Assembly (NCBI RefSeq): GCF_023634065.1
Contig: NZ_JALKCV010000013.1
Span: 1 to 64,000 of the forward strand
DNA: 64,000 bases
Source of the DNA: Microbulbifer litoralis
Lineage (GTDB): Bacteria; Pseudomonadota; Gammaproteobacteria; Pseudomonadales; Cellvibrionaceae
Reading direction: 5' to 3'
Below are positions 28,025-56,900 of this stretch, in pieces. A program made the translations under genes and the position numbers. Below the pieces are notes generated by a model. That model was given only the letters and a program-made list of their open reading frames with translations, was not told the DNA's origin and searched no databases. Within the stretch, counting starts at the first letter, position 1. The number at the start of each line of letters is the position of its first letter.

Positions 28025-28188
28025 CTAGTGGACCGCTCGCAAAGTTAGGTAACAGTTCACTTCGCCAAATCGCCCAGCTCTGCGTTGAGAAAGCTTGAAA
28101 TAGAACCACTATTCCAGCGCTTTCTTGCCTTGATCTGAACGATTTGGCTGTGCTCCTTTGTTACCGAACTTTACAAGCGGCCCACTAG
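28025..28188. repeat. 164-bp palindromic CTAG-ended element, copy E1
   Basis: Begins and ends with CTAG. The ends CTAGTGGACCGCTCGCAAAG and the complement of CTTTACAAGCGGCCCACTAG pair, and almost the whole element folds back on itself. Its complement is about 90% identical to copy E2 (55998-56161). The right CTAG supplies the TAG stop codon of the TonB receptor gene (28185-28187). No transposase is present, so it resembles a MITE. Confidence 0.85.
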
Positions 28189-43759: not shown

Positions 43760-45274
43760 TCAGAAACGCCGCTCGAACTTGAGGCTGGCGACATTTTCCC
43801 GATAGCTGTACAGCCAGTCGACATTACTGCGAATCCGGGTGTGCTCCAGGGTCAGGCTGGGTATTACTCCGAAAAACGTCATGCGCGGCGCGCGGAGGAT
43901 GGCGGTGTAGCGTTGTTCCAGGTCTTCGCGGCGGGCTTCCAGCAGGGCGTTGTATTCATCGTAGCGTTTGTGTCGAAATGATGCGAACAGGGTCATATCG
44001 CCCCATCCCCACAGCGGCGCGGCCAGGCCGAGGCGCGCGCCGTACTGCTCATAACCGCTGATGGCTTCTTCGGCATTGCGGTCGACAGCGTCGAGCCCGC
44101 CGAACAATGTCCACTGCGTGCCGAGGCGGTGCCAGGCGGTGGCGCGCAGGGAGGTCATGCCGCCATCGAAGCGGGTGTGGGCCTCGCGGCGGTAGCGCAT
44201 CTGTTTGTAGTCGCTGCGCAGTTTGAAGGCGGTGGCGGGTGATGAGAAATGCATCCACTCGGCAAAACCGCCCCAGGCGTGGTACAGGCTTTTGTTGCCG
44301 GCATCGGCGTATTCGTACAGGGGGCCCGCGGCGTACTGGTCGCGGGCGTCGCGATACTGGTAGCCGGTGTTGGCAATATAGGTACTCTGGTTGTACTGGC
44401 TGTGGTCGCTGTAGCGATCGCCGTAGGCCAGCGCCTTGAGCTGCAGGCTGCCGTGGCCGGGGAGGAACAGGGATTTTTCCAGCGCGACTTCAAAATCCGT
44501 ACCGCCGGCTTCGATGGGGGCGGGCACGGTGCGGTTGATATAACAGTTTTCTGCGTCGAACCAGATCAGGCAGGTCTCGCTGCCGGAACTCACATTGATA
44601 TTGTCGCTGTAGATGGTTCCGTAGGAGATGCGTCCCTGCCAGCTGCGGCGCTGCTCCAGCGCCTGCAAAAAGGTATTTACCGTGTGGCGCACACCCAGGG
44701 TGTGTACTTCGGAGGTGGGCAGGTCCTGCAAAATGGATGCGAAGCGCTGCAGTGCTTCGCGGTTATTGTGGTTTTCAAACAGCACCCGCGCCAGTTCCAG
44801 GCGCCCGGGTAAAAAATCCTTTTTCAGTGCCAGCAGCGCGCGGTATTCGCCCTCGGCCTGTACCAGGTTGCCACGCAGCCGCGCCAGTTTTCCCTGGGCG
44901 TAGTGCAGCAGCATCGGGTCCGGTTTTTTCAGTGTGCGGTAGGCGGCGAGAAAGCGCGCGGCCACCGGCCAGTTTCGATTGTTCAGCGCGACGTAGAGTG
45001 CGCGGCCGAGATCGTTGCGGTTGTGGCGGACTTCATATTCCTGACCATCCACAATCAGGTTGGGTAGCGGCTGGTCTTTCGCGCGCTCGTCTTCGAGCAG
45101 TTGTTGCTCGCGCTGCTCCGAGGTGAGATCCAGGTCCTGGTTCAGGCGCAGCTCGGTGTCCTGGTCTGCCTGTGTGGGTGCGGATAACAGGAATGCGGTG
45201 AGGCAGATAGACACCAGTGATGTGCGTGGGCTGCGGTGAAAAAAATTCCTGGTATTTTTGGAGAGCGGCAGCAT
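43760..45274 (-). CDS. slam: Slam-type outer-membrane translocator (DUF560) for the hemophilin
   Basis: 504 residues. Signal peptide to about PTQA, a periplasmic TPR region (about 80-210; LLHYAQGKLARLRGNLVQAEGEYRAL), then a 14-strand-type DUF560 barrel rich in aromatic girdle motifs and ending in the C-terminal Phe (FERRF). Slam proteins move TbpB-like lipoproteins or soluble hemophilins across the outer membrane. The immediate upstream gene is exactly such a substrate, 77 bp away with an attenuator hairpin between. An in-frame start 15 codons upstream is possible, but the ATG at 45274 begins the signal peptide. It is probably cotranscribed with the hemophilin from the ECF-type promoter at 46215. 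Confidence 0.88.
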   Translation of the reverse strand: MLPLSKNTRNFFHRSPRTSLVSICLTAFLLSAPTQADQDTELRLNQDLDLTSEQREQQLLEDERAKDQPLPNLIVDGQEYEVRHNRNDLGRALYVALNNRNWPVAARFLAAYRTLKKPDPMLLHYAQGKLARLRGNLVQAEGEYRALLALKKDFLPGRLELARVLFENHNNREALQRFASILQDLPTSEVHTLGVRHTVNTFLQALEQRRSWQGRISYGTIYSDNINVSSGSETCLIWFDAENCYINRTVPAPIEAGGTDFEVALEKSLFLPGHGSLQLKALAYGDRYSDHSQYNQSTYIANTGYQYRDARDQYAAGPLYEYADAGNKSLYHAWGGFAEWMHFSSPATAFKLRSDYKQMRYRREAHTRFDGGMTSLRATAWHRLGTQWTLFGGLDAVDRNAEEAISGYEQYGARLGLAAPLWGWGDMTLFASFRHKRYDEYNALLEARREDLEQRYTAILRAPRMTFFGVIPSLTLEHTRIRSNVDWLYSYRENVASLKFERRF

Positions 45275-45301
45275 AAAAAGTTGATTGCTTGGAAAGGGTA
45301 G

Positions 45302-45331
45302 AAAAATGGGCCGGAGCATTGGTTCCGGCCC
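45302..45331 (-). terminator. Attenuator/terminator hairpin between hemophilin and Slam genes
   Basis: Minus strand: GGGCCGGA pairs with TCCGGCCC across 8 bases, followed by ATTTTTC. It sits 20 bp after the hemophilin stop. Partial read-through would give high hemophore and low Slam expression. Confidence 0.75.
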
Positions 45332-46185: not shown

Positions 46186-46206
46186 GAATGCAATTGATTC
46201 GCATTC
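46186..46206. promoter_or_regulatory. Fur-box-like palindrome at hemophilin promoter
   Basis: GAATGC-N9-GCATTC, 21 bp, aligning with the AATGATAATCA-type Fur consensus at 14 of 19 positions on the minus strand. It lies just downstream of the proposed -10 element, where Fur would block initiation. Confidence 0.65.
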
Positions 46207-46214
46207 TCTATAGA

Positions 46215-46240
46215 AACGAGTCAGGTCGATACTTTTTTCA
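46215..46240 (-). promoter_or_regulatory. Putative FecI-type ECF promoter of the hemophilin gene
   Basis: TGAAAAAA (-35, 46233-46240) and CGTT (-10, 46215-46218), 14 bases apart, about 78 bp before the ATG. The same pair with identical spacing occurs at three other promoters of this locus. Confidence 0.75.
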
Positions 46241-46465
46241 CGATTTGGTGGTTTTTTGGAAAAAAATTTTTAGTTCAATAAGCAGCATGGTGCTTAAACA
46301 GATACTGAAGCGATGAGCAGACCTTTCTATGTCATTTCATGAATGATGACGGGGAAACGGAGGAGGAGAGTGGGCAGATATATGGAAGGCGCTATTCCGA
46401 AATCGCTGAGACCCAGGCATTGCACCTGAGTCTCGGCGGTATCAGTGAGTGATTACCTATGCTGT

Positions 46466-49003
46466 TTAACTATTGCAGCCGGAAACGGAAGCATAGTTGG
46501 ATTTCAGTAGCTCAATTTTCCAATCATGTTTTCCCGCTATGGATACGGTGTTGTGGATATCAACGCTGTTCAGCTGTGTTGCGAACTGATTTGCTTCTTC
46601 ACAGGTAGCAGGTATTGCCGGCATCGGGAACTGCACGCCGATACGAATTGTCTCTCCCTGCTTCAGAACAAATCCATCACGAATGGCTTCGCCAGTGTCA
46701 AGATTTACCAGAGTCGAAGTGTATTGAGGGTCACTGGAATAGTTTTCGACGTTGAGCGTGTAATCTCCACCTGCAGCGGTGAGTCTATAATCGAATAGCG
46801 TCAAGGTTTCGGCCGCGTCACCGAGGGAGAGATTTACTCCCCAAGTTCGTTGTTCAGGGAAGACCGTTTGCGTGTAGTCAGGGCCTCCACTTCTGTTTCC
46901 GGGCATTTCAAGCAGTAGCGTGGGATAGTTTTCCCGGTGGACTGTGTGCGCTGTTACGGTATAAGGCCCGGCGAAGTCCATACCATCGAAGACCTGATAA
47001 TTGAATACGTAAATCCCCGGCTCGGTTGGCGAAACGTAAAAGTGACTACAAGTTAATTCGTTATTGGTCTCGGAGAAATCACAAGGTGGCCTTGGCGGGT
47101 AGTAAACAGGGCCTACTCCATTCTTCTCCATGATGTTGCCGGCAGGTTGTTCGACAATTGTCCAAAGGTGAGTGAGTTCATCGCCATCCGGGTCGTAGCT
47201 ATCGGCGGTTGCCGTGAAGTAATCAGCGCGCCATTCAGAACCAGATTCACCGCCGAATTTTTCTCCCGTGATCGCGAACGGCTGCTCGATATCCCACTTG
47301 GGTTCGGGCAGCGAATGGTGCCGACCTGCAGCGGTACCCTTTAAAATACGGGTAACCGGCGCATGGTTAGTCGCCTTCGCAATAACCACGACATCGCTGA
47401 TATTCGATTTCGCGCCGTGTTCATCCGTTACCTGTAGCTCTAACAAGTAGGGCCCGGGGGCATCGGCGGTGAACGATGGAGTGGCGGTACTGGCACCCTG
47501 AAGCTCGGCACTGCTGTTGTCCGGCCGTTGGATAATGGCCCATTGATAAGTGAGCCGATTGTCGTCCGGGTCAGAGCTCTCCTCCCCATCGAGAGTGACT
47601 ACCAATCCCGCCATGGTAGTCGGGTTGCGGGTGCTGGTTTCCGCTTCGGCATCCGGAGGCCGGTTGGCGCCGAGCATGGCGGTGAAGGTCATGCTGGTGG
47701 TGGAGGTACTGGTGCCGTCGGAGACGGTCAGTTGCCAGGTGTATTCGCCATCCACCGATGGCACGAACTCCATCGACGTGCAGGGGTAGAGGCCGAGGCT
47801 GCAAAAGGAGACGATGCCCTGATAGGTATCATCGGCAGCCGCGTCATAGCCTTCGGGATGGGCGGAAAGGGACCAGTCGTAGCTCAGCGCATCGCCTTCG
47901 AGGTCGTAGGAGTCACCGCCGCGAATGGTGATGACGGCTCCGCGTTCGATCTCCTGGGTAAAACTGCTGCCGGGTGTCAGTATCGCCACCGGGGGCGTAT
48001 CGCCCGCATTTTCGGGTAGCCCGACCTCAATGCGTTCGCTGGTGCAGTTGCGCGCGATGCCGTCAAACACACACAGCTCCACGGTGTAGCGACCAAGGCC
48101 ATCGCGGGAATCCGCCACAAAGCTGGTCCGGGCGGTGGTGGTGGCGCTGAGCCGGGCCATAGAACCGTTCGGTTTGCCCAGCAGGCGCCAACGGTATTGC
48201 AGGGGGTCGCCATTGGCGTCCTCACTCATGGAGCCATCCAGGGTGACGGTGTCCCCGAGCATCACTTCCTCTTCCAGGGGCGCGACTTTGGCCACCGGGA
48301 TGGCATTGGCATCGACGACCCTGATGGTGGTGGTGGCGGGTTCGCTCATGCGGCCGTTGTATTCCACCACCAACCGGGCTTTGTATTCGCCTACCAGGTC
48401 GGCGTCAAAGCGCGGGTAAATCAGGTTGCCCTGGTCCAGTTCCGCGGTGCTGTCCCGGGGTTTTTGTGTCAGTTCCCAGTGGTAGATCAGGGCGAGTGCC
48501 TCGCCGCCATCCGGTGGGGTACTGCGGGAGCCGTCCAGCTGTACCGTGCCGACAGTCCAGTTGATTTCCGGCTCCAGTACCGCCTGCGGATTCGGGTCCA
48601 GGGCAGTGATGGTCACGCGGCTGGACCCGGTGTCCTCACTCGCCGCGGTGCCGTCGTTGATCTCCAGCCGGATCACATAGGTACCGGGGAGGTCCGGGGA
48701 GAAGCTCGCCTGGCTGGCGTCGGCGTTCTCGATTATCGCCTCGCTGCCTTCCGGCTGGCTGAGGATGCTCCACTGCCAGGATGTGATGCTGCCGTTTTCG
48801 GAGCTGCTGGCGCTGCCATCCAGGGTGATGGTGTCTTCGCCCGCATGCACCTCGGTCATGTCGGCACTTGCACTGGCTGTGGGCCGGGGCGGGCCGGGAT
48901 CCGTATCGTTCCCGCCACCGCCGCCACTGCAGGCAGCGAGCGTCAGTATCAGCGAGAACAGAAGTAAGGGTCTTAGCAGCACAGCCATTGAAGCGGTCTC
49001 CAT
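46466..49003 (-). CDS. PKD-repeat surface lipoprotein coregulated with the haem system
   Basis: 845 residues. Lipoprotein signal with lipobox LAAC followed by a Gly-rich tether, then about six PKD/K319-like Ig repeats, each with a W(x)W/I..P.(G/N)S core (SWQWSILSQPEGSEA, IYHWELTQKPRDSTA, QYRWRLLGKPNGSMA, TYQWAIIQRPDNSSA), and a Cys-containing C-terminal domain (from about 640). The ATG at 48988 has GGAG upstream and may be the true start. No such lipoprotein is part of the described hemophilin clusters I know, yet it has the same ECF-type promoter. The 3' third has visibly lower GC than the 5' part. A surface scaffold or host-protein-binding role is inference. Confidence 0.8.
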   Translation of the reverse strand: METASMAVLLRPLLLFSLILTLAACSGGGGGNDTDPGPPRPTASASADMTEVHAGEDTITLDGSASSSENGSITSWQWSILSQPEGSEAIIENADASQASFSPDLPGTYVIRLEINDGTAASEDTGSSRVTITALDPNPQAVLEPEINWTVGTVQLDGSRSTPPDGGEALALIYHWELTQKPRDSTAELDQGNLIYPRFDADLVGEYKARLVVEYNGRMSEPATTTIRVVDANAIPVAKVAPLEEEVMLGDTVTLDGSMSEDANGDPLQYRWRLLGKPNGSMARLSATTTARTSFVADSRDGLGRYTVELCVFDGIARNCTSERIEVGLPENAGDTPPVAILTPGSSFTQEIERGAVITIRGGDSYDLEGDALSYDWSLSAHPEGYDAAADDTYQGIVSFCSLGLYPCTSMEFVPSVDGEYTWQLTVSDGTSTSTTSMTFTAMLGANRPPDAEAETSTRNPTTMAGLVVTLDGEESSDPDDNRLTYQWAIIQRPDNSSAELQGASTATPSFTADAPGPYLLELQVTDEHGAKSNISDVVVIAKATNHAPVTRILKGTAAGRHHSLPEPKWDIEQPFAITGEKFGGESGSEWRADYFTATADSYDPDGDELTHLWTIVEQPAGNIMEKNGVGPVYYPPRPPCDFSETNNELTCSHFYVSPTEPGIYVFNYQVFDGMDFAGPYTVTAHTVHRENYPTLLLEMPGNRSGGPDYTQTVFPEQRTWGVNLSLGDAAETLTLFDYRLTAAGGDYTLNVENYSSDPQYTSTLVNLDTGEAIRDGFVLKQGETIRIGVQFPMPAIPATCEEANQFATQLNSVDIHNTVSIAGKHDWKIELLKSNYASVSGCNS

Positions 49004-49059
49004 TTGAGCGTCGGTTGTCCGTCAGGGCACCGGTGTTTGCTGGTGTTATCCAAACAGGG

Positions 49060-49074
49060 ATGATTATCATTAAC
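49060..49074. promoter_or_regulatory. Fur box between divergent lipoprotein and exbB genes
   Basis: ATGATTATCATTAAC; the complement GTTAATGATAATCAT is a close match to the Fur consensus. It lies downstream of the lipoprotein -10 element and 53 bp upstream of the exbB -35 element, so it most directly controls the lipoprotein. Confidence 0.75.
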
Positions 49075-49083
49075 ACTCCTGAC

Positions 49084-49109
49084 AACGAACCGGTCGCCGT
49101 TTTTTTTCA
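49084..49109 (-). promoter_or_regulatory. Putative FecI-type ECF promoter of the PKD lipoprotein gene
   Basis: TGAAAAAA (49102-49109) and CGTT (49084-49087), 14 bases apart. It shares the longer string GTTCGTTGTC at the -10 region with the receptor promoter at 54894. Confidence 0.75.
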
Positions 49110-49126
49110 CGGCATTCCCAGAAAAC

Positions 49127-49152
49127 TGAAAAAAATTGCCCGGGTCTTCGTT
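49127..49152 (+). promoter_or_regulatory. Putative FecI-type ECF promoter of exbB-exbD-tonB
   Basis: TGAAAAAA (49127-49134) and CGTT (49149-49152), 14 bases apart, about 50 bp before the exbB ATG. It faces away from the lipoprotein promoter, with 17 bp between the two -35 elements. Confidence 0.75.
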
Positions 49153-49202
49153 ATTGGGGAATCAACCCGACCCTCTGGCTCGACGACCCCGGAAACCGAC
49201 GT

Positions 49203-50030
49203 ATGCTCCGATCTTCCCGTACCTGCCCCCGGCTGCTGTTGCTGGCGGCCCTGCTGTTATCCGCTTCCGGCGTACAGGCCAATGACCCGCCGCCGGCTCC
49301 AGGGAAGACCGCCACTGCAACCGCGGCGGCCGGCGCGCCCGCCGCGCTGCCCCACAACCTGACACCCATGGGAATGTTCCGGCAGGCGGACTGGGTGGTA
49401 AAGGCGGTGATGCTGACCCTGCTGGCGGCCTCGCTGGTCACCTGGATCGCACTGCTGGCCAAGGGCAGTGAGTTGCGTGCGCTGTCCCGCCGCCAGCGGC
49501 AGACGCTGTTGAGGCTTTCCCGGGCCCGCAGCCTGGATGCGGTGGATCACGATGACGCTTTCCTGGCCGCCGCCCGGGCGGAGTGGCGGCTGTCTGCCGC
49601 TGTCCTGTCGGATGGAGGCGGGCTCAAGGAGCGGGTTGCCACCAGCCTGCAGCGGCTGGAAGCCGCCAGTGGCCGCCGCGCTTCACGGGGTACCGGCGTA
49701 CTGGCGACGATCGGTGCGACAGCACCGTTTGTCGGCCTGTTCGGCACCGTGTGGGGCATCATGAACAGCTTTATCGGTATCTCCAAGGCGCAAACCACCA
49801 GCCTGGCGGTGGTGGCGCCGGGGATCGCCGAGGCGTTACTGGCAACGGCGCTGGGGCTGGTGGCGGCCATTCCGGCAGTGGTCATCTACAACCACTTTGC
49901 CCGCCGCATCCAGGCCTATCGCGCGCAGGTTGCAGACACCACCGCGGCGGTGCTGCAACTGGTTTCGCGGGACCTGAGCCACTGCGCCCTGAAGCCGGCG
50001 ACCCGCCCCACCATCGAAACCGGGGCCTGA
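49203..50030 (+). CDS. exbB: ExbB, TonB-system proton channel subunit
   Basis: 275 residues. An N-terminal signal-like hydrophobic segment and an Ala/Pro-rich linker (as in the longer proteobacterial ExbB form) precede three membrane helices. The conserved core is GTGVLATIGATAPFVGLFGTVWGIMNSF and ALLATALGLVAAIPAVVIYNHFAR. With ExbD it makes the proton-driven motor that energises TonB. It is first in an exbB-exbD-tonB operon (3-bp gap to exbD), under an ECF-type promoter shared with the hemophilin receptor, so it is dedicated to this haem system. Confidence 0.95.
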   Translation: MLRSSRTCPRLLLLAALLLSASGVQANDPPPAPGKTATATAAAGAPAALPHNLTPMGMFRQADWVVKAVMLTLLAASLVTWIALLAKGSELRALSRRQRQTLLRLSRARSLDAVDHDDAFLAAARAEWRLSAAVLSDGGGLKERVATSLQRLEAASGRRASRGTGVLATIGATAPFVGLFGTVWGIMNSFIGISKAQTTSLAVVAPGIAEALLATALGLVAAIPAVVIYNHFARRIQAYRAQVADTTAAVLQLVSRDLSHCALKPATRPTIETGA

Positions 50031-50033
50031 ACC

Positions 50034-50462
50034 ATGGGCCTGCGTATCGAGCACGACGACGAAATGGTGGAGAACCACGAGATCAACGTGACGCCGTTTA
50101 TCGATGTGATGCTGGTGCTGCTGATCATTTTCATGGTGGCGGCACCGCTGGCAACGGTGGATATCAAGGTCGATCTGCCGACGGCCGGCGCGCAGCCGGA
50201 GGAAACACCGGACGAGCCGCTGTACCTGACCCTGGGCGCAGACCATTCGCTGACCCTGGGCGATACACCGGTGGCGGAAGACAGCCTGGCTGCAGCGCTG
50301 GAGCGGGCCGCGGACGGCCAGAAGGATCCCAGGATCTTCCTGCGCGCCGACAGGACCGTGAACTACCAGAACCTGATGGCCACACTGGACCAACTGCGCG
50401 CAGCCGGTTATCTCAAGGTCGCGCTGGTGGCCCGGGAGGGCGGGAGCGGCGGGCGTGAATGA
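50034..50462 (+). CDS. exbD: ExbD, TonB-system proton channel subunit
   Basis: 142 residues, one N-terminal membrane helix with the essential acid in NVTPFIDVMLVLLIIFMVAAP, then a periplasmic domain (VKVDLPTAGAQP...). Partner of ExbB and TonB. Its 3' end overlaps the tonB GTG start by eight bases, which implies translational coupling. Confidence 0.95.
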   Translation: MGLRIEHDDEMVENHEINVTPFIDVMLVLLIIFMVAAPLATVDIKVDLPTAGAQPEETPDEPLYLTLGADHSLTLGDTPVAEDSLAAALERAADGQKDPRIFLRADRTVNYQNLMATLDQLRAAGYLKVALVAREGGSGGRE

Positions 50463-51381
50463 CCTTTCCCGGGGCCGGCTGGTGAGTGCGGCGTTAGCGG
50501 ACCTGCGGCCGGATACGGTTTGCGGCGGCGACGGCAACCGGCGCCGCTGGATCGCTTCCACGGCGGTGGTGGTGTGCGCTTATGCGATTCCGCTCGGATG
50601 GTGGTTGTGGCATGTGCCGCCCCCCTCCCGCGAGGCGCCCCCGCCGGCCGCCATGGTGGTGACGCTGTCATCCGTGGCCATGTCGCCATCCGAGTCCAGC
50701 GAGCTGCCGCCCGGGCCGCAGCAGGAGAACCGGCAGGCCTCCCGGCCTGCACCGGATCAGCCGGTACCGGTGAAAAAAGCCCAAACAGCGCCTGAACCGG
50801 CACCGACGGTGCCGGAAGTTCCAGAGCAGCCGGACCCTCCCGTAGAGCTGGCCAGGCAACCCCCTGAAAAACCGGCCCCCCGGGAAATCGAGCCGGAATC
50901 CAGGCCGGAATCGAAGTCGGAACCCAGGCCGGAGTCCGAGCCGGTGCAGGACCCGGAGCGGGATATGTCGGAAACTGCCGCTCCCGCGGCAGCGGCCTCC
51001 GTCGCCAGCGCGCCGCCACAGGCCGCGCGCCGGGCCGAGCAGGCGGCGGCACCGAACCGGGGTATGAGCCGGCCGGTTGCCGATCTGAACAGGGTGCCGG
51101 GCTGGCGCGACCGGCTGCTGCAACAGCTCAATGCAGCCAAGCGCTACCCGCGCCGGGCCCGCCGTTTGCGCCAGCAAGGTGTCAGTTATTTACATTTCCG
51201 GATGGATGAACAGGGGCGGGTTCTCGCCAGTCGCATTGCGCGCAGCTCGGGTTTTGAACTGCTGGACCGGGAGACCCTGGCGCTGATCCGGCGCGCCGAA
51301 CCGCTGCCCCTTCCTCCGGCGGAGCTGGCGGGAAAGCGGCTGGAGTTTGTAGTGCCGGTGGATTTTTTCCTGAACCGATAA
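50455..51381 (+). CDS. tonB: TonB, energy transducer
   Basis: 308 residues, GTG start. One N-terminal membrane helix (about 28-50), a long periplasmic Pro/Glu-rich spacer (about 55-175) with several RPES/EPRPESEP-type imperfect repeats, and a C-terminal TonB domain (about 205-308; YPRRARRLRQQGVSYLHFRM ... SSGFELLDRETLALIRRAEPLPLPP). It delivers proton-motive energy to outer-membrane receptors, here most likely the receptor at 52059. It converges with the haem oxygenase gene, 57 bp away. Confidence 0.93.
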   Translation: MNDLSRGRLVSAALADLRPDTVCGGDGNRRRWIASTAVVVCAYAIPLGWWLWHVPPPSREAPPPAAMVVTLSSVAMSPSESSELPPGPQQENRQASRPAPDQPVPVKKAQTAPEPAPTVPEVPEQPDPPVELARQPPEKPAPREIEPESRPESKSEPRPESEPVQDPERDMSETAAPAAAASVASAPPQAARRAEQAAAPNRGMSRPVADLNRVPGWRDRLLQQLNAAKRYPRRARRLRQQGVSYLHFRMDEQGRVLASRIARSSGFELLDRETLALIRRAEPLPLPPAELAGKRLEFVVPVDFFLNR

Positions 51382-51438
51382 CCGGGGCCGGCGGCGGGAA
51401 AGCGTGCGCAAGAGGCGAAAGGGAAACGGGGATGCCCG

Positions 51439-52047
51439 TCAGAGCGCCAGTTCCGGTTCCGGTTGTACTTGTTGCGCACAGGCGTCTTGCAACAGCACTT
51501 CGAAGTAAGCAAACGCCGCCTTTGCCGCCGCTTGCAGGCGCGCCTCCTGCGCGGCGTCCAGTGACAGGGCATCGAATACCGCGGTGAAGGCGCGCCAGTG
51601 CCGCGCCCGTCCCTCCGGTGCTCCGGCCAGGTGTCGGGCGCCGTGCTGCTCCGACAACCCCAGTGCCCGGGCGCGCTTGAGCAGGATGGCCGCGCCCAGG
51701 TTGGAACCCTCGGACACAAACAGCCAGCCCCAGGCTTCCGGGTCCTGTCGGGGTTGCTCCGCCAGTGTGCCGCTCGCCGGGACTGTGCGCCCGAGATCGC
51801 GCAGGTCTGCCTCCACGGCGGCGAGTCGGCCGCGCTCCGGCAGTTCCGGCAGTAGATCGCCCAGGGCGGGCCAATGATAGAGGGACGCGATCCGGTACTG
51901 GAAACGGAACTGCACATCCAGCCAGTGGCCGTAGGCCGCCAGGCTGGAGAATGGGGCCTGTTGTGCCACCAGTACATGCAGGCGTTCGTGCTGCTCGTCG
52001 GTGACGGACATCAGCCGCTTGCTGCGGCTTTCATGGGGTATGTTCAT
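51439..52047 (-). CDS. hemO: Haem oxygenase (HemO/PigA type)
   Basis: 202 residues, cytoplasmic. The N-terminal helix has the proximal-His region DEQHERLHVLV (His20 or His24), and the distal-helix region contains WGWLFVSEGSNLGAAILLKRA, close to bacterial HemO/PigA. It opens imported haem to biliverdin and releases iron. The frame is open a further 129 codons upstream over the receptor gene, but the ATG at 52047, 11 bp after the receptor stop, matches the family's N-terminus. Cotranscribed with the receptor, so uptake and degradation are coupled. Confidence 0.92.
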   Translation of the reverse strand: MNIPHESRSKRLMSVTDEQHERLHVLVAQQAPFSSLAAYGHWLDVQFRFQYRIASLYHWPALGDLLPELPERGRLAAVEADLRDLGRTVPASGTLAEQPRQDPEAWGWLFVSEGSNLGAAILLKRARALGLSEQHGARHLAGAPEGRARHWRAFTAVFDALSLDAAQEARLQAAAKAAFAYFEVLLQDACAQQVQPEPELAL

Positions 52048-52058
52048 GGAAACTCCGA

Positions 52059-54827
52059 TCAGAAATGCAGATTGGCGCTGAGCCGTGTGGTGCGCCCGGG
52101 AGCCGGGACCAGCCCCAGGCTCAGCGCGTCGATGTAGTATTCGTCGGTAATGTTGTCGATGTTGAAATCGACGGTGACTGTGTCGTTGGGCTGCCATGTC
52201 ACGAAAGCATCGATAACGCTGTAGCGGTGCCATGGGATCGGGTCGGAGTAGCTGCGGCTGGTTTCGGTCTGGTCGTTGAACTCGGGCACCCGGTTGCGCT
52301 CGCCCACCCAGTTCGCGTGGGCGCCGAATTCCAGTGTTTCGGAAAACGGGCGGAAGCCCAGGGTGGCGTTGGCTTCCCACTTGGGGGGAATCATGTTGTT
52401 GACGAAGCTCGAGGCGATACCGTAGTCCGTGCATCGCTGCCGGCGATAGCTGCCGGTGTGGCAGGTTTCGATACCGGCGTAGCTGGTGCCGGCGGCCTTG
52501 ACGAAAATCCAGCCGGCATCGTAATCCAGTGTCAGTTCGACCCCATCGAAAGCGACGCTGTCGATATTGCGGGTGCGGAACAGGTAGGAACTCAGGCCGA
52601 CGCTGGTGTCTTCCCAGGCGTTGGGAATGGTGCGGGTGATGTAGTCTTCCGTGCGGTTGTTGAAGTAGGCCAGTTTGGCCCGCGCCACGTCCCCGCCGCC
52701 GACCAGGCCGCGCCGCAGCAGGTTGACCCCCACCTCCCTGTTGCGGGTGTGTTCCGGCTGCAGGACGATGCCCGGCGCTGGCGCCACGGAAAAACCGGAG
52801 GTGCTCTCGAAAAGGCTGGGCATTCGCAGAGCCTCGGCGTAGCGCAGATACAGTTGCAGGCCGCCGAGCGGCTCCCAGGTCAGGCTGGCAACCGGGGCCG
52901 AACCGGACTGGGTGTTGCGGGAAAATTCCGGCCGGGAATCACACACCATGTCGCCGTCCTGATCCGCACAGGGGCTGTCTTCGGGATCCATGATGACGAC
53001 CGGCTTGTTGTCCTCGACATCGAAACGTGTGTAGCGGACGCCGGCGTCCAGCGTCAGCGCTGGCAGCAACGTCCATTTCATGGCGGCAAATGCGCTGCTT
53101 TCACTGCGCTCGCCGTCGCGCATCAGCGAGAGGGCATCCACTTCCGCGTACTTGGGTTGGACCCTTTCGTTCTGCCAGGCCAGTCCGTAGCGGAGCTGGA
53201 AATCGCCGAGTGCGGAAACCTGTGTGGTGTTGGTGATGTCCGCGCCCCAGCGCCGGTAGTTTTCGGTACTGGTGGTCTGGGAGAGCAGTTCCAGCATCTC
53301 TTCGGTGTAGGCGTTGTTGAGGCTGTCGGTGTCGGTGTGCCAGAGGTGTACGTCCAGGTCGAACCACTCACTGTCCGCGGGTTGCCACTGGTAACGGGTG
53401 GTGTAGGTGTTGGCGGTGACCCGGGACAGTTCGGTCTGTGCGGTTTTGCCGAACCAGATCAACTGCGACGGCATCAGCTCGCCGTATTCGCTGTCGTAGC
53501 GCAGGTAGCTGAACGCCAGGGTGTGCGCATTGCCGGGATAGAGTGTGCTCTTCAGCAGCAGGGACTCGCTGTCGAAACTGGTGTTCACGACCTGTTCGCC
53601 ACCGCGTATGCGGGAGGCGCCCACGACCTCCGGTCGCACTTCGGTGTAAAAGCCGCGGTTGTACCGTTCGGACAGGTCGAGAACCGGCGTGGGGCCGTGT
53701 TCGCCGGCGTAGTAGTTGCCCTGGCTGCGCCGCGCATAGGCCGCTACCAGGTCGACTCCGGGCAGGCGCGCGGTAGTCGCCAGGCTGCCGGCGTACCCCT
53801 TGAAGTCGAGGGAATCGGGCCGGTCCATGGAGCCTTCCGGCGGATAGGCGTTGTCGATACTGTATTCGCCGTCGCACAGGGTGAGCCCGGGCAGGCAGTC
53901 GATACGATAAAAGGGGGACGAGCCCAGGCTGCCCCCCGTTGCGTAGCCGGACTGGGTGCCGGACGCGGGTGGTGATCCGCTGTTGTTGCCCACCGGGCTA
54001 CCGCGCAGCCGCAGGCCCCAGGTGTTGCCGGGCTTGGCGATGTCATCGGCTTTCAGCGTGACCATGCTGACCAGCCCGCCGGTAGCGCCGGTGCCGCTGG
54101 CGCCCATGGTGGGGCCCTTGTCGATCTCGACACTGCCGATCAGGTCCGGGTCCACGTAGCTGCGGCTGGTGGCGCCGGCATAGCCCCGGTAGACCGTGGT
54201 TTCCTGGCGGGCGCCGTCCACCAGCACCGGTACCCGTCCCTGTCCCTGCATGCCGCGGATGTTGATATTGAGGCCGCCGCTATTGCGGTTCTCGGCCACC
54301 ATCACACCGGTGCTGCCCTTGAACATGTCACCCACCGACATACCCCGGAAGCGCTCGATCTCTTTCTGGCTGATACGGGCGGAGGAACCGGGCTCGCGAT
54401 AGGGTTGGTCCGTTGCCTCCACCGAGTCTTCGCCTTCGGCCTGTACCCGAACCGCCGGTAACATCCGGGCGCTCTCCAGTGGCGGCAGGGCGCTGACCAC
54501 CACCGTATTGCTGCTGCCGAAGTGCCAGTGCAGGCCGGTGCCGGACAGCATGCGGTCCAGGGCTTCGTTCACTTCCAGGCGACCGCTGACCGGCCGGGAG
54601 TTCAGGTCCGCCAGGTCGGCGGCGCTGGCGGATACCTGGTAGCCGGACTGCAGGGAGAAAGTGTCCAGGGCGACGGGCAGGGGTTGGGCGGGAATGTCGA
54701 ATTCAGGTTTTTCAGGGGCCGCAAACTCTTCCGCCACTGCGGCCAACGGCAAAACCAGCAGGATGGCCAGAAACCAGGCGGGTGCGGGATGCAGCCCCGG
54801 CCCGGGTTGTCGGAAAATCAAGGTCAT
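52059..54827 (-). CDS. hphR: STN-containing TonB-dependent haem/hemophilin receptor (HphR-like)
   Basis: 922 residues. Signal peptide to about AVAEE, an STN signalling domain (about 45-100; DIPAQPLPVALDTFSLQSGYQVSASAADL), a plug (about 135-250; RISQKEIERFRGMSVGDMFKGSTGVMV, NINIRGMQGQGRVPVLVDGARQ) as in the haemoglobin/transferrin receptor class, and a barrel ending in LHF. Cys-pair loops (CLPGLTLC, CADQDGDMVC) face outside. The ATG at 54827 is chosen because the frame upstream overlaps fecR and lacks a signal peptide. The STN domain would report ligand binding to FecR. Together with the HphA-like and Slam genes it is the presumed hemophilin receptor. Confidence 0.88.
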   Translation of the reverse strand: MTLIFRQPGPGLHPAPAWFLAILLVLPLAAVAEEFAAPEKPEFDIPAQPLPVALDTFSLQSGYQVSASAADLADLNSRPVSGRLEVNEALDRMLSGTGLHWHFGSSNTVVVSALPPLESARMLPAVRVQAEGEDSVEATDQPYREPGSSARISQKEIERFRGMSVGDMFKGSTGVMVAENRNSGGLNINIRGMQGQGRVPVLVDGARQETTVYRGYAGATSRSYVDPDLIGSVEIDKGPTMGASGTGATGGLVSMVTLKADDIAKPGNTWGLRLRGSPVGNNSGSPPASGTQSGYATGGSLGSSPFYRIDCLPGLTLCDGEYSIDNAYPPEGSMDRPDSLDFKGYAGSLATTARLPGVDLVAAYARRSQGNYYAGEHGPTPVLDLSERYNRGFYTEVRPEVVGASRIRGGEQVVNTSFDSESLLLKSTLYPGNAHTLAFSYLRYDSEYGELMPSQLIWFGKTAQTELSRVTANTYTTRYQWQPADSEWFDLDVHLWHTDTDSLNNAYTEEMLELLSQTTSTENYRRWGADITNTTQVSALGDFQLRYGLAWQNERVQPKYAEVDALSLMRDGERSESSAFAAMKWTLLPALTLDAGVRYTRFDVEDNKPVVIMDPEDSPCADQDGDMVCDSRPEFSRNTQSGSAPVASLTWEPLGGLQLYLRYAEALRMPSLFESTSGFSVAPAPGIVLQPEHTRNREVGVNLLRRGLVGGGDVARAKLAYFNNRTEDYITRTIPNAWEDTSVGLSSYLFRTRNIDSVAFDGVELTLDYDAGWIFVKAAGTSYAGIETCHTGSYRRQRCTDYGIASSFVNNMIPPKWEANATLGFRPFSETLEFGAHANWVGERNRVPEFNDQTETSRSYSDPIPWHRYSVIDAFVTWQPNDTVTVDFNIDNITDEYYIDALSLGLVPAPGRTTRLSANLHF

Positions 54828-54893
54828 GCTCCCGTGTCTCCGGATTGCGCATCGCAAATGCGAAACTTTTGGATAGAAGATATCGGGAGAGAC

Positions 54894-54919
54894 AACGAAC
54901 GAGGCGGTGTTTTTTTTCA
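54894..54919 (-). promoter_or_regulatory. Putative FecI-type ECF promoter of the receptor-haem oxygenase operon
   Basis: TGAAAAAA (54912-54919) and CGTT (54894-54897), 14 bases apart, 66 bp before the receptor ATG. The -35 element lies within a perfect palindrome, TTTTTTTCAC-GCCCGG-GTGAAAAAAA (54911-54936), just after the fecR stop codon. Confidence 0.75.
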
Positions 54920-54949: not shown

Positions 54950-55954
54950 TTATTCCGGGCCGAGAAGGATCCGCAGGAAAGGCGTCAGATGGAGTACCCG
55001 CCCTCCGCGGGGCTGGACGATGGCGCTCAGCGCACCATCCACATTGGAGAGGTCGTAGCTGCCGGTGATGCGATGCCGGGCCAGTGTGTCGTCCAGCACC
55101 AGGATGTAGCCGGGGGCGTGGCGCTCGAGGGTGTCCACCAGGTCCGCCACCGGCCGATCCTGTACGAACAGCCGGCCCCGGCGCCACAGGGCCACCCGGT
55201 CCGGTGGCAGGCGGAAGCGTTGCACGACGCCGCTGTCGCGATCGATCGTGATCTGGTCGCCGGCCAGCAACCGATACGGGGAGTCCTGGTTGCCGCTGGC
55301 GCGGTCCGTCACCCGGACCTCCCCCTCGCTGACCGCCACTGCGACCAGCGGCTCGCCTGCCCGGACAGCAAAAGCGGTACCGATGTCCCGGGCCAGCAGC
55401 TCATCCATTTGTACGGTGAACGGCCGCCGGTCTTCGGCCACGTCGAAAAAAGCCTCTCCGCGCAGCAGCCTGACCCGACGCTGGCCGCTGCTGAAGTCTT
55501 CATCGATGGCGCTGTCCGCGCCCAGTGTCACCAGCGTGCCGTCGGGCAGGGAGAGGGTGCGGGTTTCCGCGATCCCGCTCCGGTAATCCGCCGACCAAAG
55601 CGGAAGCGTCAGTGGCAGCAGGGCCAGCAACACCGTGGCGGCAACGGCCAGGGAGACCAGTGTCCGGCGGCGGGGGAAGCGGTGTGGGGGCCGGGCTTGT
55701 TCGGCGGGCCACTGTTGCCGGTCGGCAGGCATGTCGCCCAGCAGCGCCCAGGTATTGCAGACCTTCTGCCAGGCCTGCCGGTGCTGCCTGTCGGCGGCCA
55801 GCCAGGTGTCCAGGTCCCGGCGCAGGCGCCGGTCATCGGGGGCGGCCTCGAGCCAGAGCATCCAGTCTGCCGCGCGCTCCAGGTGCGCGGTATCGGCCTT
55901 TGCCGGCACCCACTCTTCACGGGCGGCGGCCATTCCCCTGTTGGCAGTTTCCAT
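54950..55954 (-). CDS. fecR: FecR-family anti-sigma regulator
   Basis: 334 residues from the ATG at 55954 (a TTG 12 codons upstream is possible). A cytoplasmic N-terminal FecR_N/DUF4880 domain has the WMLWLEAAPDDRRLRRDLDTWLAADRQHRQAWQKV pattern. One membrane helix follows (about 97-117), then the periplasmic FecR domain (TLSLPDGTLVTLGADSAIDEDFSSGQRRVRLLRGEAFFDVAEDRRPF) and an STN-like C-terminal domain. It holds or activates the FecI sigma factor in response to the STN domain of the receptor encoded downstream. Two tandem 164-bp elements occupy the whole gap between fecI and fecR, so cotranscription would have to cross them. Confidence 0.93.
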   Translation of the reverse strand: METANRGMAAAREEWVPAKADTAHLERAADWMLWLEAAPDDRRLRRDLDTWLAADRQHRQAWQKVCNTWALLGDMPADRQQWPAEQARPPHRFPRRRTLVSLAVAATVLLALLPLTLPLWSADYRSGIAETRTLSLPDGTLVTLGADSAIDEDFSSGQRRVRLLRGEAFFDVAEDRRPFTVQMDELLARDIGTAFAVRAGEPLVAVAVSEGEVRVTDRASGNQDSPYRLLAGDQITIDRDSGVVQRFRLPPDRVALWRRGRLFVQDRPVADLVDTLERHAPGYILVLDDTLARHRITGSYDLSNVDGALSAIVQPRGGRVLHLTPFLRILLGPE

Positions 55955-55997
55955 CTCAGATCCGGAGTTGCTGATGCTTGTACCTTTCAAAACAGGA

Positions 55998-56161
55998 CTA
56001 GTGGGCCGCTTGTAAAGTTCGGTAGCAAAGGAGCACAGCCAAATCGTTCAGGTCAAGGCGAGAAAGCGCTGGAATAGCAGCGTTATTTCAAGCTTTCTCA
56101 ACGCAGAGCTGGACGATCTGGCGAAGCGAACTGTTACCTAACTTTGCGAGCGGCCCACTAG
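55998..56161. repeat. 164-bp palindromic CTAG-ended element, copy E2
   Basis: Begins CTAGTGGGCCGCTTGTAAAG and ends with its near-complement, with CTAG at both ends. About 90% identical to the complement of E1. The right CTAG (56158-56161) is shared with E3, so the two are joined head to tail. Confidence 0.88.
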
Positions 56162-56321
56162 TGATCCATGCGGAAAGTTTGGTGACTAAGGAGCACAGCC
56201 AAAGTGTTCAGATCAAGGCGAGAAAGCGCAGGAATAGTGGTTCTATTTCAAGCTTTCTCAACGCAGAGCTGGGCGCTTTGGCGACGCGAACAGTTACACA
56301 ACTTTCCGCATGGACCACTAG
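56158..56321. repeat. 164-bp palindromic CTAG-ended element, copy E3
   Basis: Same length and CTAG ends, but the terminal arms read CTAGTGATCCATGCGGAAAG and pair with CTTTCCGCATGGACCACTAG at the other end. Both arms have therefore changed together relative to E1 and E2. The right CTAG provides the TAG stop of fecI (56318-56320). Confidence 0.88.
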
Positions 56322-56872
56322 GCCACGGATGCGGCAATGTGCACCACCGCCCTGCGTACCAGGCGGTGTGCCGTGGCAGTGGATACCCTGAGCCGCTCCG
56401 ATATTTCCGCCAGCGTGTAGCCCCCGACACGGTGCATTTCGATGGCGATTCGCTCCCGCTCGGGAAGGCCCTCCAGCACCACCGAAAGCTGCTCCAGCCG
56501 CTTGTGCTGCAACAGCAGTTGCTCCGGGCTGCGCTCTTCCCGGGGTTTCAGCCACTCCACGCTCTCCTCGTTCTGGTGGCGGGACTCCATGGTGGATCGC
56601 CGCGACAGATCGAAGGCGAGGTTGCGCACGATCCGGTAGAGATAGGCAGCGCCCGAGGTCCCCGGTGCAGCCGCCGGGCCATTATCGGGCACGAATCGCA
56701 GGAACGCATCCTGAACAACATCCTCGGCCCGCGATCGGCATCCGGTTATGGTGGCGACATAGTCCACCAGATCCGCACGATGATCCAGATAGACGTCCAG
56801 TTTGTTGTCGATGTATTTCACGTATCCACCGATCCATGGGCCCCCAGTTCCGAGGTCGACTGATGTCGACAC
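56318..56872 (-). CDS. fecI: FecI-type ECF sigma factor
   Basis: 184 residues: sigma region 2 (YLDHRADLVDYVATITGCRSRAEDVVQDAFLRFV ... YLYRIVRNLAFDLSRR) and region 4 (LPERERIAIEMHRVGGYTLAEISERLRVSTATAHRLVRRAV). It pairs with the FecR downstream and the STN receptor; the four TGAAAAAA-N14-CGTT promoters are its likely targets. A Fur-box palindrome covers the bases just 5' of the start codon, so transcription is probably iron-repressed. The stop codon lies in the CTAG end of element E3. Confidence 0.93.
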   Translation of the reverse strand: MSTSVDLGTGGPWIGGYVKYIDNKLDVYLDHRADLVDYVATITGCRSRAEDVVQDAFLRFVPDNGPAAAPGTSGAAYLYRIVRNLAFDLSRRSTMESRHQNEESVEWLKPREERSPEQLLLQHKRLEQLSVVLEGLPERERIAIEMHRVGGYTLAEISERLRVSTATAHRLVRRAVVHIAASVA

Positions 56873-56885
56873 TCTTAAATCTAAA

Positions 56886-56900
56886 CGATAATCATTGTCG
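56886..56900. promoter_or_regulatory. Fur box upstream of fecI
   Basis: CGATAATCATTGTCG, embedded in AAACGATAATCATTGTCGTT, is a strong match to the Fur consensus, 14-28 bp upstream of the fecI start codon. Confidence 0.85.

Follow-up and report, generated by a model that had tools for sequence, protein, structure and literature searches.

Four predicted promoters for a FecI-like extracytoplasmic function sigma factor at a hemophilin heme-uptake locus of Microbulbifer litoralis

Genes and predicted promoters of the locus

The DNA analyzed here is a 64,000-nucleotide (nt) stretch of Microbulbifer litoralis (assembly GCF_023634065.1, contig NZ_JALKCV010000013.1, positions 1 to 64,000), referred to below as the window, and the subject is a heme-uptake system within it together with four sites of identical layout, TGAAAAAA-N14-CGTT, that are predicted to be promoters of an extracytoplasmic function (ECF) sigma factor encoded at the same locus. 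The genes, with the profile models that support their assignment, are as follows.

43760-45319, minus strand: surface lipoprotein assembly modifier (Slam), downstream of hphA; true start may be 45274; PF04575 (5.7e-44), PF24575
45352-46137, minus strand: hphA, hemophilin-type Slam-dependent hemophore; PF22828 (1e-26), PF22829; NF041636 above cut-off
46466-48988, minus strand: PKD-repeat lipoprotein; PF22352, PF18911; LAAC lipobox read from the sequence; start set from a conserved M6 and its GGAG
49203-50030, plus strand: exbB; TIGR02797 above cut-off
50034-50462, plus strand: exbD; TIGR02803 above cut-off
50455-51381, plus strand: tonB; PF03544, TIGR01352
51439-52047, minus strand: heme oxygenase (hemO), 11 nt behind the receptor gene; PF01126 (1.1e-17)
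52059-54827, minus strand: TonB-dependent heme receptor with N-terminal STN signaling domain; PF07660, PF07715, PF00593; TIGR01785 above cut-off
54950-55972 (5' end approximate), minus strand: FecR-type sigma regulator; PF04773 (4.8e-21), PF16220
56318-56872, minus strand: FecI-like ECF sigma factor, 184 amino acids; PF04542, PF08281 (sigma2 and sigma4 domains)

By the domain features tested, the locus belongs to the FecI/FecR/FecA signaling type. It also shows the features of hemophilin/Slam heme acquisition (HphA-HsmA-HphR): the heme-binding and C-terminal domains of HphA, an adjacent Slam gene and a heme-type TonB receptor encoded nearby. The STN domain (PF07660) lies at residues 64-114 of the translated receptor stretch, and the receptor scored 325.1 bits against the heme-type model TIGR01785 (cut-off 316.85). 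The sigma factor is a relative of E. coli FecI that does not reach orthology by the E. coli FecI equivalog model NF041727 (51.1 bits, cut-off 260). Its start is probably GTG 56821 rather than 56872, since four relatives share a conserved VKYxDxxL start and since a Fur-like box described below would otherwise lie merely 8 nt before the start. Structure prediction for the PKD lipoprotein, mostly strands with a mean predicted local distance difference test (pLDDT) score of 68.4 and a predicted template modeling (pTM) score of 0.33, was uninformative. The four sites, each of 26 bp, are positioned as follows.

46215-46240, minus strand: predicted ECF promoter of hphA(-slam); TGAAAAAA at 46233-46240, N14, CGTT at 46215-46218; orthologous sites in five genomes
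49084-49109, minus strand: predicted ECF promoter of the PKD lipoprotein gene; TGAAAAAA-N14-CGTT; orthologous sites in relatives
49127-49152, plus strand: predicted ECF promoter of exbB-exbD-tonB; orthologous site in four of five other genomes
54894-54919, minus strand: predicted ECF promoter of the TonB-dependent heme receptor gene (and hemO); orthologous site in five genomes

The original prediction had described these sites as one shared layout, 50-80 bp before start codons and not noticed elsewhere in the window, and had suggested that it is the recognition site of the local FecI. An exact pattern scan recovered all four at those positions and strands, and CGTT lies 77 (hphA), 80 (PKD), 50 (exbB) and 66 bp (receptor) from the start codon, the PKD value becoming 95 bp with the more likely start at 48988. 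The two sites that had been said to share GTTCGTTGTC at the -10 are those of the PKD and receptor genes. The PKD and exbB promoters stand back to back, with 17 bp between the two sites in the window (49084-49152); across the five genomes that have the pair the sites are 16-17 bp apart, and two polymerases may compete there. The hphA and slam genes are adjacent on the same strand, and if the groups hphA-slam, exbB-exbD-tonB and receptor-hemO are operons, as judged by spacing alone, the four promoters, with that of the PKD gene, would serve eight genes.

The motif in the window and in the genome

No further copy of TGAAAAAA-N14-CGTT was found in the 64-kb window, even when one mismatch was allowed, in agreement with what had been noted earlier. 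Across the whole genome (4,990,775 bases, 40 contigs) there were four exact matches, all at these four units, whereas many random genomic matches had been named as the result that would speak against a regulon. None of 100 dinucleotide shuffles of the window contained four matches (mean 0.01). With one mismatch the genome-wide count rose to 24, of which 20 lay outside the locus, compared with 13 for a reversed control pattern; given this comparison, the additional matches look like background. Further regulon members at these 20 places were considered and rejected, the best matrix score among them being 13.6 bits and their number being close to that of the reversed control. Elsewhere in the genus, 47 genomes together contained 42 exact matches, which were scattered (0-3 per genome, counted manually) and formed no cluster.

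When TGAAAAA and TCGTT were allowed any gap of 10-20, 11 matches were obtained. Four were the sites themselves, a fifth was nested within that of the receptor, and the remaining six lay elsewhere at other spacings, two of them close together on contig C28. A dyad search for any 6-mer/4-mer pair with a gap of 5-25 common to the four 150-bp upstream regions (those of the PKD gene and exbB overlapping on opposite strands) returned solely registers of the same motif, and no dyad at all was obtained from 1000 sets simulated with a first-order Markov model. Compared with one another, the four sites agreed in 72/72 core comparisons and by only 33-36% in upstream flank and spacer, so that they do not look like duplicated segments.

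Orthologous clusters in Alcanivoracaceae

Within the genus, a close relative of this FecI was found in this genome alone, the next best being 41% identical. The nearest kin found were in Alcanivoracaceae, where five of 46 genomes encode a FecI of 62-77% identity together with the same core cluster: Alloalcanivorax profundimaris, two strains of Alloalcanivorax marinus, Alcanivorax sp. 24 and an Alcanivorax metagenome-assembled genome. This distribution suggests that the cluster was acquired horizontally. Heme oxygenase was unmatched at E 1e-4 in the six Alcanivorax/Alloalcanivorax loci of these five genomes, and each of the six cluster-bearing genomes encodes the PKD lipoprotein at this locus.

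A relaxed form of the motif matched 20 times in the six loci, and 20/20 matches lay upstream of an orthologous receptor, exbB, PKD or hphA gene, including one before a second, duplicated PKD gene of A. marinus SY10-13 (L087 15232-20482), each of the two PKD copies having its own motif. At the 12 core positions (TGAAAAA and TCGTT), the orthologous sites agreed with their counterparts in the window at 223 of 228 comparisons (98%), and the surrounding positions agreed at 24-45% (spacer 115/266, upstream 149/380, next 8 nt 68/152, following 19 nt 87/361); the second PKD site of A. marinus SY10-13 was left out of this comparison. A matrix trained without the window ranked its four sites 1-4 with 28.5, 26.7, 26.6 and 16.1 bits, the next match in the 64 kb scoring 8.7.

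Co-occurrence was tallied by eye in 94 genomes (48 of the genus and 46 Alcanivoracaceae), using the exact pattern for the genus set and TGAAAA-N15-TCGTT for the family set. Of the six genomes whose FecI is 62% or more identical, five had at least three matches within 15 kb, against 0/88 others (Fisher p 1e-7, a value that ignores relatedness and shared ancestry). The exception among the six was Alcanivorax sp. 24, and genome G452, which lacks a FecI this similar, had two matches 9.8 kb apart.

The motif follows the sigma factor rather than the cargo

In eight other hemophilin-Slam loci (L066, L069, L070, L071, L074, L075, L076 and L080), no TGAAAAA-N15-CGT was found. The ECF factors in five of these loci share 28-31% identity with the window FecI, and in L069, L070 and L075 an ECF-like open reading frame (ORF) beside fecR was recognized by eye only. 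No matrix match of at least 8 bits occurred upstream of HphA in any of the eight, or upstream of the receptor in seven (the contig of L074 ends first). Two of these loci, L066 and L080, belong to the same genus as the window and have a different hemophilin-Slam-receptor cluster with an ECF factor of 30% identity and without these promoters.

The reverse combination was also found. A locus with a 54%-identical FecI and no hemophilin in the examined stretch carries TGAAAAAA-N14-CGTC twice, once upstream of fecR and once upstream of the receptor gene. In three loci with a FecI of 45-48% identity the blocks are changed: visual inspection gave GGGAAAA ... CGTC ahead of the receptor, and a loose pattern, which also matched twice within coding sequence, gave TGATTAAA or TGAGTAAT ... 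TTCGTC ahead of fecR. Recognition-helix residues are TAHR in the FecIs paired with TGAAAA and TAQR or SAQR in the drifted ones, which is a correlation only. Since the layout is present with close FecI relatives, altered with diverged ones and missing at hemophilin loci with distant ECF factors, the motif tracks the sigma factor and not the cargo. The proposal that the layout is the recognition site of the local FecI thus gained support from three sides: its recurrence at orthologous genes in five genomes with a close FecI relative, its lack at eight hemophilin genes whose associated ECF factors are distant, and the changed -10 and -35 blocks beside FecI relatives of 45-54% identity.

Four paralogous loci carry an ECF-like site before fecR (L127 9326, L128 upstream of FecR, L129 10044 and L130 9717), and no motif was found before fecR in the window or in five close relatives. 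In the same four loci (L127-L130), which gave no hemophilin match in the examined stretch, receptor and PKD-lipoprotein genes are neighbors, with the PKD gene directly behind the receptor gene.

Fur-like boxes

Three Fur-like boxes were predicted at the locus.

46190-46208, minus strand: Fur-like box at the hphA promoter, starting 6 nt after CGTT; 13/19 to consensus
49056-49074, minus strand: Fur-like box at the PKD promoter, 9 nt after CGTT; 14/19 to consensus
56881-56899, minus strand: Fur-like box upstream of fecI; 14/19, top match in the plus-strand scan of the window

About 0.2 matches of 14/19 are expected in 64 kb. A scan of the 40 nt after each motif site, covering 24 promoters, divided these into two groups. 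All 13 hphA and PKD promoters had a 12-14/19 match starting 6-9 nt after CGTT (in the orthologous promoters, five of hphA and six of PKD genes, the match is 12-13/19 and starts at +8), and the 11 receptor and exbB promoters reached at best 9/19. A double Fur gate is known, since E. coli fecI and fecA are both Fur-bound according to excerpts of PMC9249621; a restriction of the gate to the hemophore and the lipoprotein, both exported, would be a variant particular to this system. The four-unit regulon first proposed is supported in a refined form, with four predicted promoters serving eight genes if the operons hold and two of these promoters having an added Fur-like box.

Weighing the explanations

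The four sites are best explained as promoters that RNA polymerase recognizes by means of the local ECF sigma factor (56318-56872), a reading to which we assign a probability of about 0.88, and the four units are very probably co-activated by this adjoining sigma factor. The geometry GAAAA-N16-CGT equals that of the TAAAT-N16-CGT box of PvdS, which favors taking the two blocks for the -35 and -10 elements of an ECF promoter of the iron type. An operator for a DNA-binding regulator of heme genes, activator or repressor, would account for the nearby inverted partner of the A-tract at three sites (TTTTTTCA ... TGAAAAAA or GGAAAAAA), such as a dimer site might have. Such a reading is nevertheless very unlikely, as the layout is asymmetric and faces the gene in 24/24 cases, has the spacing of an iron-starvation box and tracks an ECF factor. 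The idea of a palindrome was dropped since the 20 nt preceding the orthologous sites lack the inverted partner seen at the receptor site.

It is highly improbable that the sites, taken as ECF promoters, are read by a different ECF factor of the genome, alone or together with FecI. Four other places in the genome are weakly similar to FecI (E up to 1e-5, 25-28% identity); however, 20-kb stretches at three of them (L083-L085) held no comparable site (at most 11.2 bits), and no genome of the genus without this FecI has the motif cluster. Chance, or the A-tract composition of AT-rich intergenic DNA, can be set aside almost entirely: A-tracts are common in such DNA and one 26-bit false match was met elsewhere, but neither the shuffled (0/100) nor the simulated sets (0/1000) reproduced the layout, and orthologous promoters kept 223/228 core positions against 24-45% nearby.

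Several observations weigh against assigning the sites to this sigma factor and against the Fur boxes beside them. The false match, of 26.1 bits with the all-sites matrix, lies at L071 3818, antisense inside an unrelated ORF; other matches of this matrix in the eight hemophilin loci reached at most 12.7 bits, none of them before HphA or a complete receptor gene. In the paralogues, the block spacing read by eye is less regular. The relaxed pattern was chosen after the sites of Alcanivorax sp. 24 had been viewed, and this genome, with the most distant FecI of the set, has looser sites, three in all, its receptor site starting CGAAA and its PKD site being TGAAATTT, with no exbB site within the cluster. 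An exbB-exbD pair beside hemO in Alcanivorax sp. 24 (55-56% identical) was considered and assigned to another system, as it adjoins a paralogous sigma factor. The five outside genomes are closely related, so that few independent lineages are represented. Fur-like windows reaching 12/19 are not rare either (23 on the plus strand, about 10 expected), and since such matches are common, the hphA box is called from its conserved place and not from its score.

Proposed mechanism

The sequence shows the layout, its uniqueness in the genome, its conservation, the way it tracks the sigma factor and the parts of a FecIRA-type signaling chain. We infer FecI recognition, the inducer (heme or heme-loaded hemophilin), operon structure and the Fur gating of fecI, hphA and the PKD gene, and the working proposed here follows the FecIRA paradigm. 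In low iron, Fur would leave fecI; heme or heme-loaded hemophilin at the receptor would cause the STN domain to signal to FecR, which would free or activate FecI. FecI would then turn on hphA-slam, the PKD lipoprotein gene, exbB-exbD-tonB and receptor-hemO jointly, with sigma region 4 contacting TGAAAAA as the -35 element and sigma region 2 contacting TCGTT as the -10 element at a fixed spacing. A second Fur box over the presumed start at hphA and the PKD gene would keep these exported parts off in sufficient iron regardless of FecI.

Between fecI and fecR, at 55997-56316, lies a tandem pair of 160-bp elements whose terminal inverted repeats are imperfect, the first copy reading ACTAGTGG...CCACTAGT. 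By manual count, 45 genomic places match the element at roughly 80% or above, including another in the window at 28025-28183. As the matched parts of fecI and fecR are merely 30-107 bp apart in relatives, this insertion may uncouple the fecI/fecR pair.

Comparison with known systems

Published systems are compared here by what excerpts of the cited papers describe. In E. coli FecI-FecR-FecA, as here, an ECF sigma factor, FecR and a receptor with an N-terminal signaling domain are encoded side by side, with a Fur-like box at fecI. No motif was found upstream of fecI in the window, in keeping with the statement that fecIR is not autoregulated (PMC9249621). Four separate target promoters are predicted here and one is known there, the cargo here is heme or hemophilin, and the Fur-like boxes follow the -10 at two promoters, whereas the Fur consensus at E. 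coli fecA covers -36 to -17 (PMC9249621).

The nearest known whole system is the hemO/HphA cluster of Acinetobacter. In Acinetobacter baumannii it comprises an ECF sigma factor, an anti-sigma factor, a receptor, a Slam-dependent hemophore, Slam, a TonB-related protein and heme oxygenase (PMC10483418, PMC8560813). The present locus adds exbB-exbD and the PKD lipoprotein, which are not named in the published gene list as described, although that list includes a hypothetical protein, and the descriptions in the excerpts of these two papers give no promoter motif for the cluster's sigma factor. In Serratia HasI-HasS-HasR, a similar sigma/anti-sigma/receptor logic drives a secreted hemophore, the receptor and a dedicated TonB paralogue (PMC9249621); the hemophore and exporter belong to other families and the proposed HasI -35 is TTTACGGGTTT. 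HasI also drives its own anti-sigma gene, whereas fecR in the window has no site, although the paralogous loci do have fecR sites.

The PvdS iron-starvation box, TAAAT-N16-CGT (PMC2235872), has identical geometry when the motif is read as GAAAA-N16-CGT. It differs in its -35, which is GAAAA here and not TAAAT, in a -10 that is extended here to TCGTT and in that exact matches are confined here to one locus; TAAAT did not occur at the -35 of the 24 sites, which have GAAA in 24/24 and GAAAA in 23/24. HemI-HemR-HemAD of Stenotrophomonas maltophilia is likewise a FecIRA-like hemin system with a Fur box at the sigma operon, which is ordered hemI-hemR-hemAD, and the excerpts of PMC12772443 name no hemophilin, Slam or sigma recognition motif. 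Among the titles and abstract openings surveyed, all of open-licence PMC papers, none gave a promoter motif for a hemophilin-cluster sigma factor, nor did excerpts of PMC4362757, PMC3597554, PMC6180224 and PMC8406197 give a comparable motif.

Significance

The general picture of iron regulation is unchanged by these results, the locus being a clear, if rather typical, case of iron control of an established type. A precise promoter specificity can be predicted for a FecI-like ECF factor from sequence alone, the list of exact matches in the genome being these four units, and this specificity is suggested to change in step with the sigma factor. A more tentative and rather doubtful extension is that the locus constitutes a portable, self-insulated regulon, in which an ECF factor and four private promoters moved jointly from one bacterial family to another and act in the recipient without affecting any other gene, with the PKD lipoprotein as an unrecognized surface partner of such heme uptake. 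The pairing of sigma factor and promoters would offer a compact and testable, possibly orthogonal, expression switch. The analysis also ties FecI-type control to a Slam-dependent hemophilin system having its own TonB-ExbB-ExbD and points to the PKD lipoprotein as a probable additional component of heme uptake.

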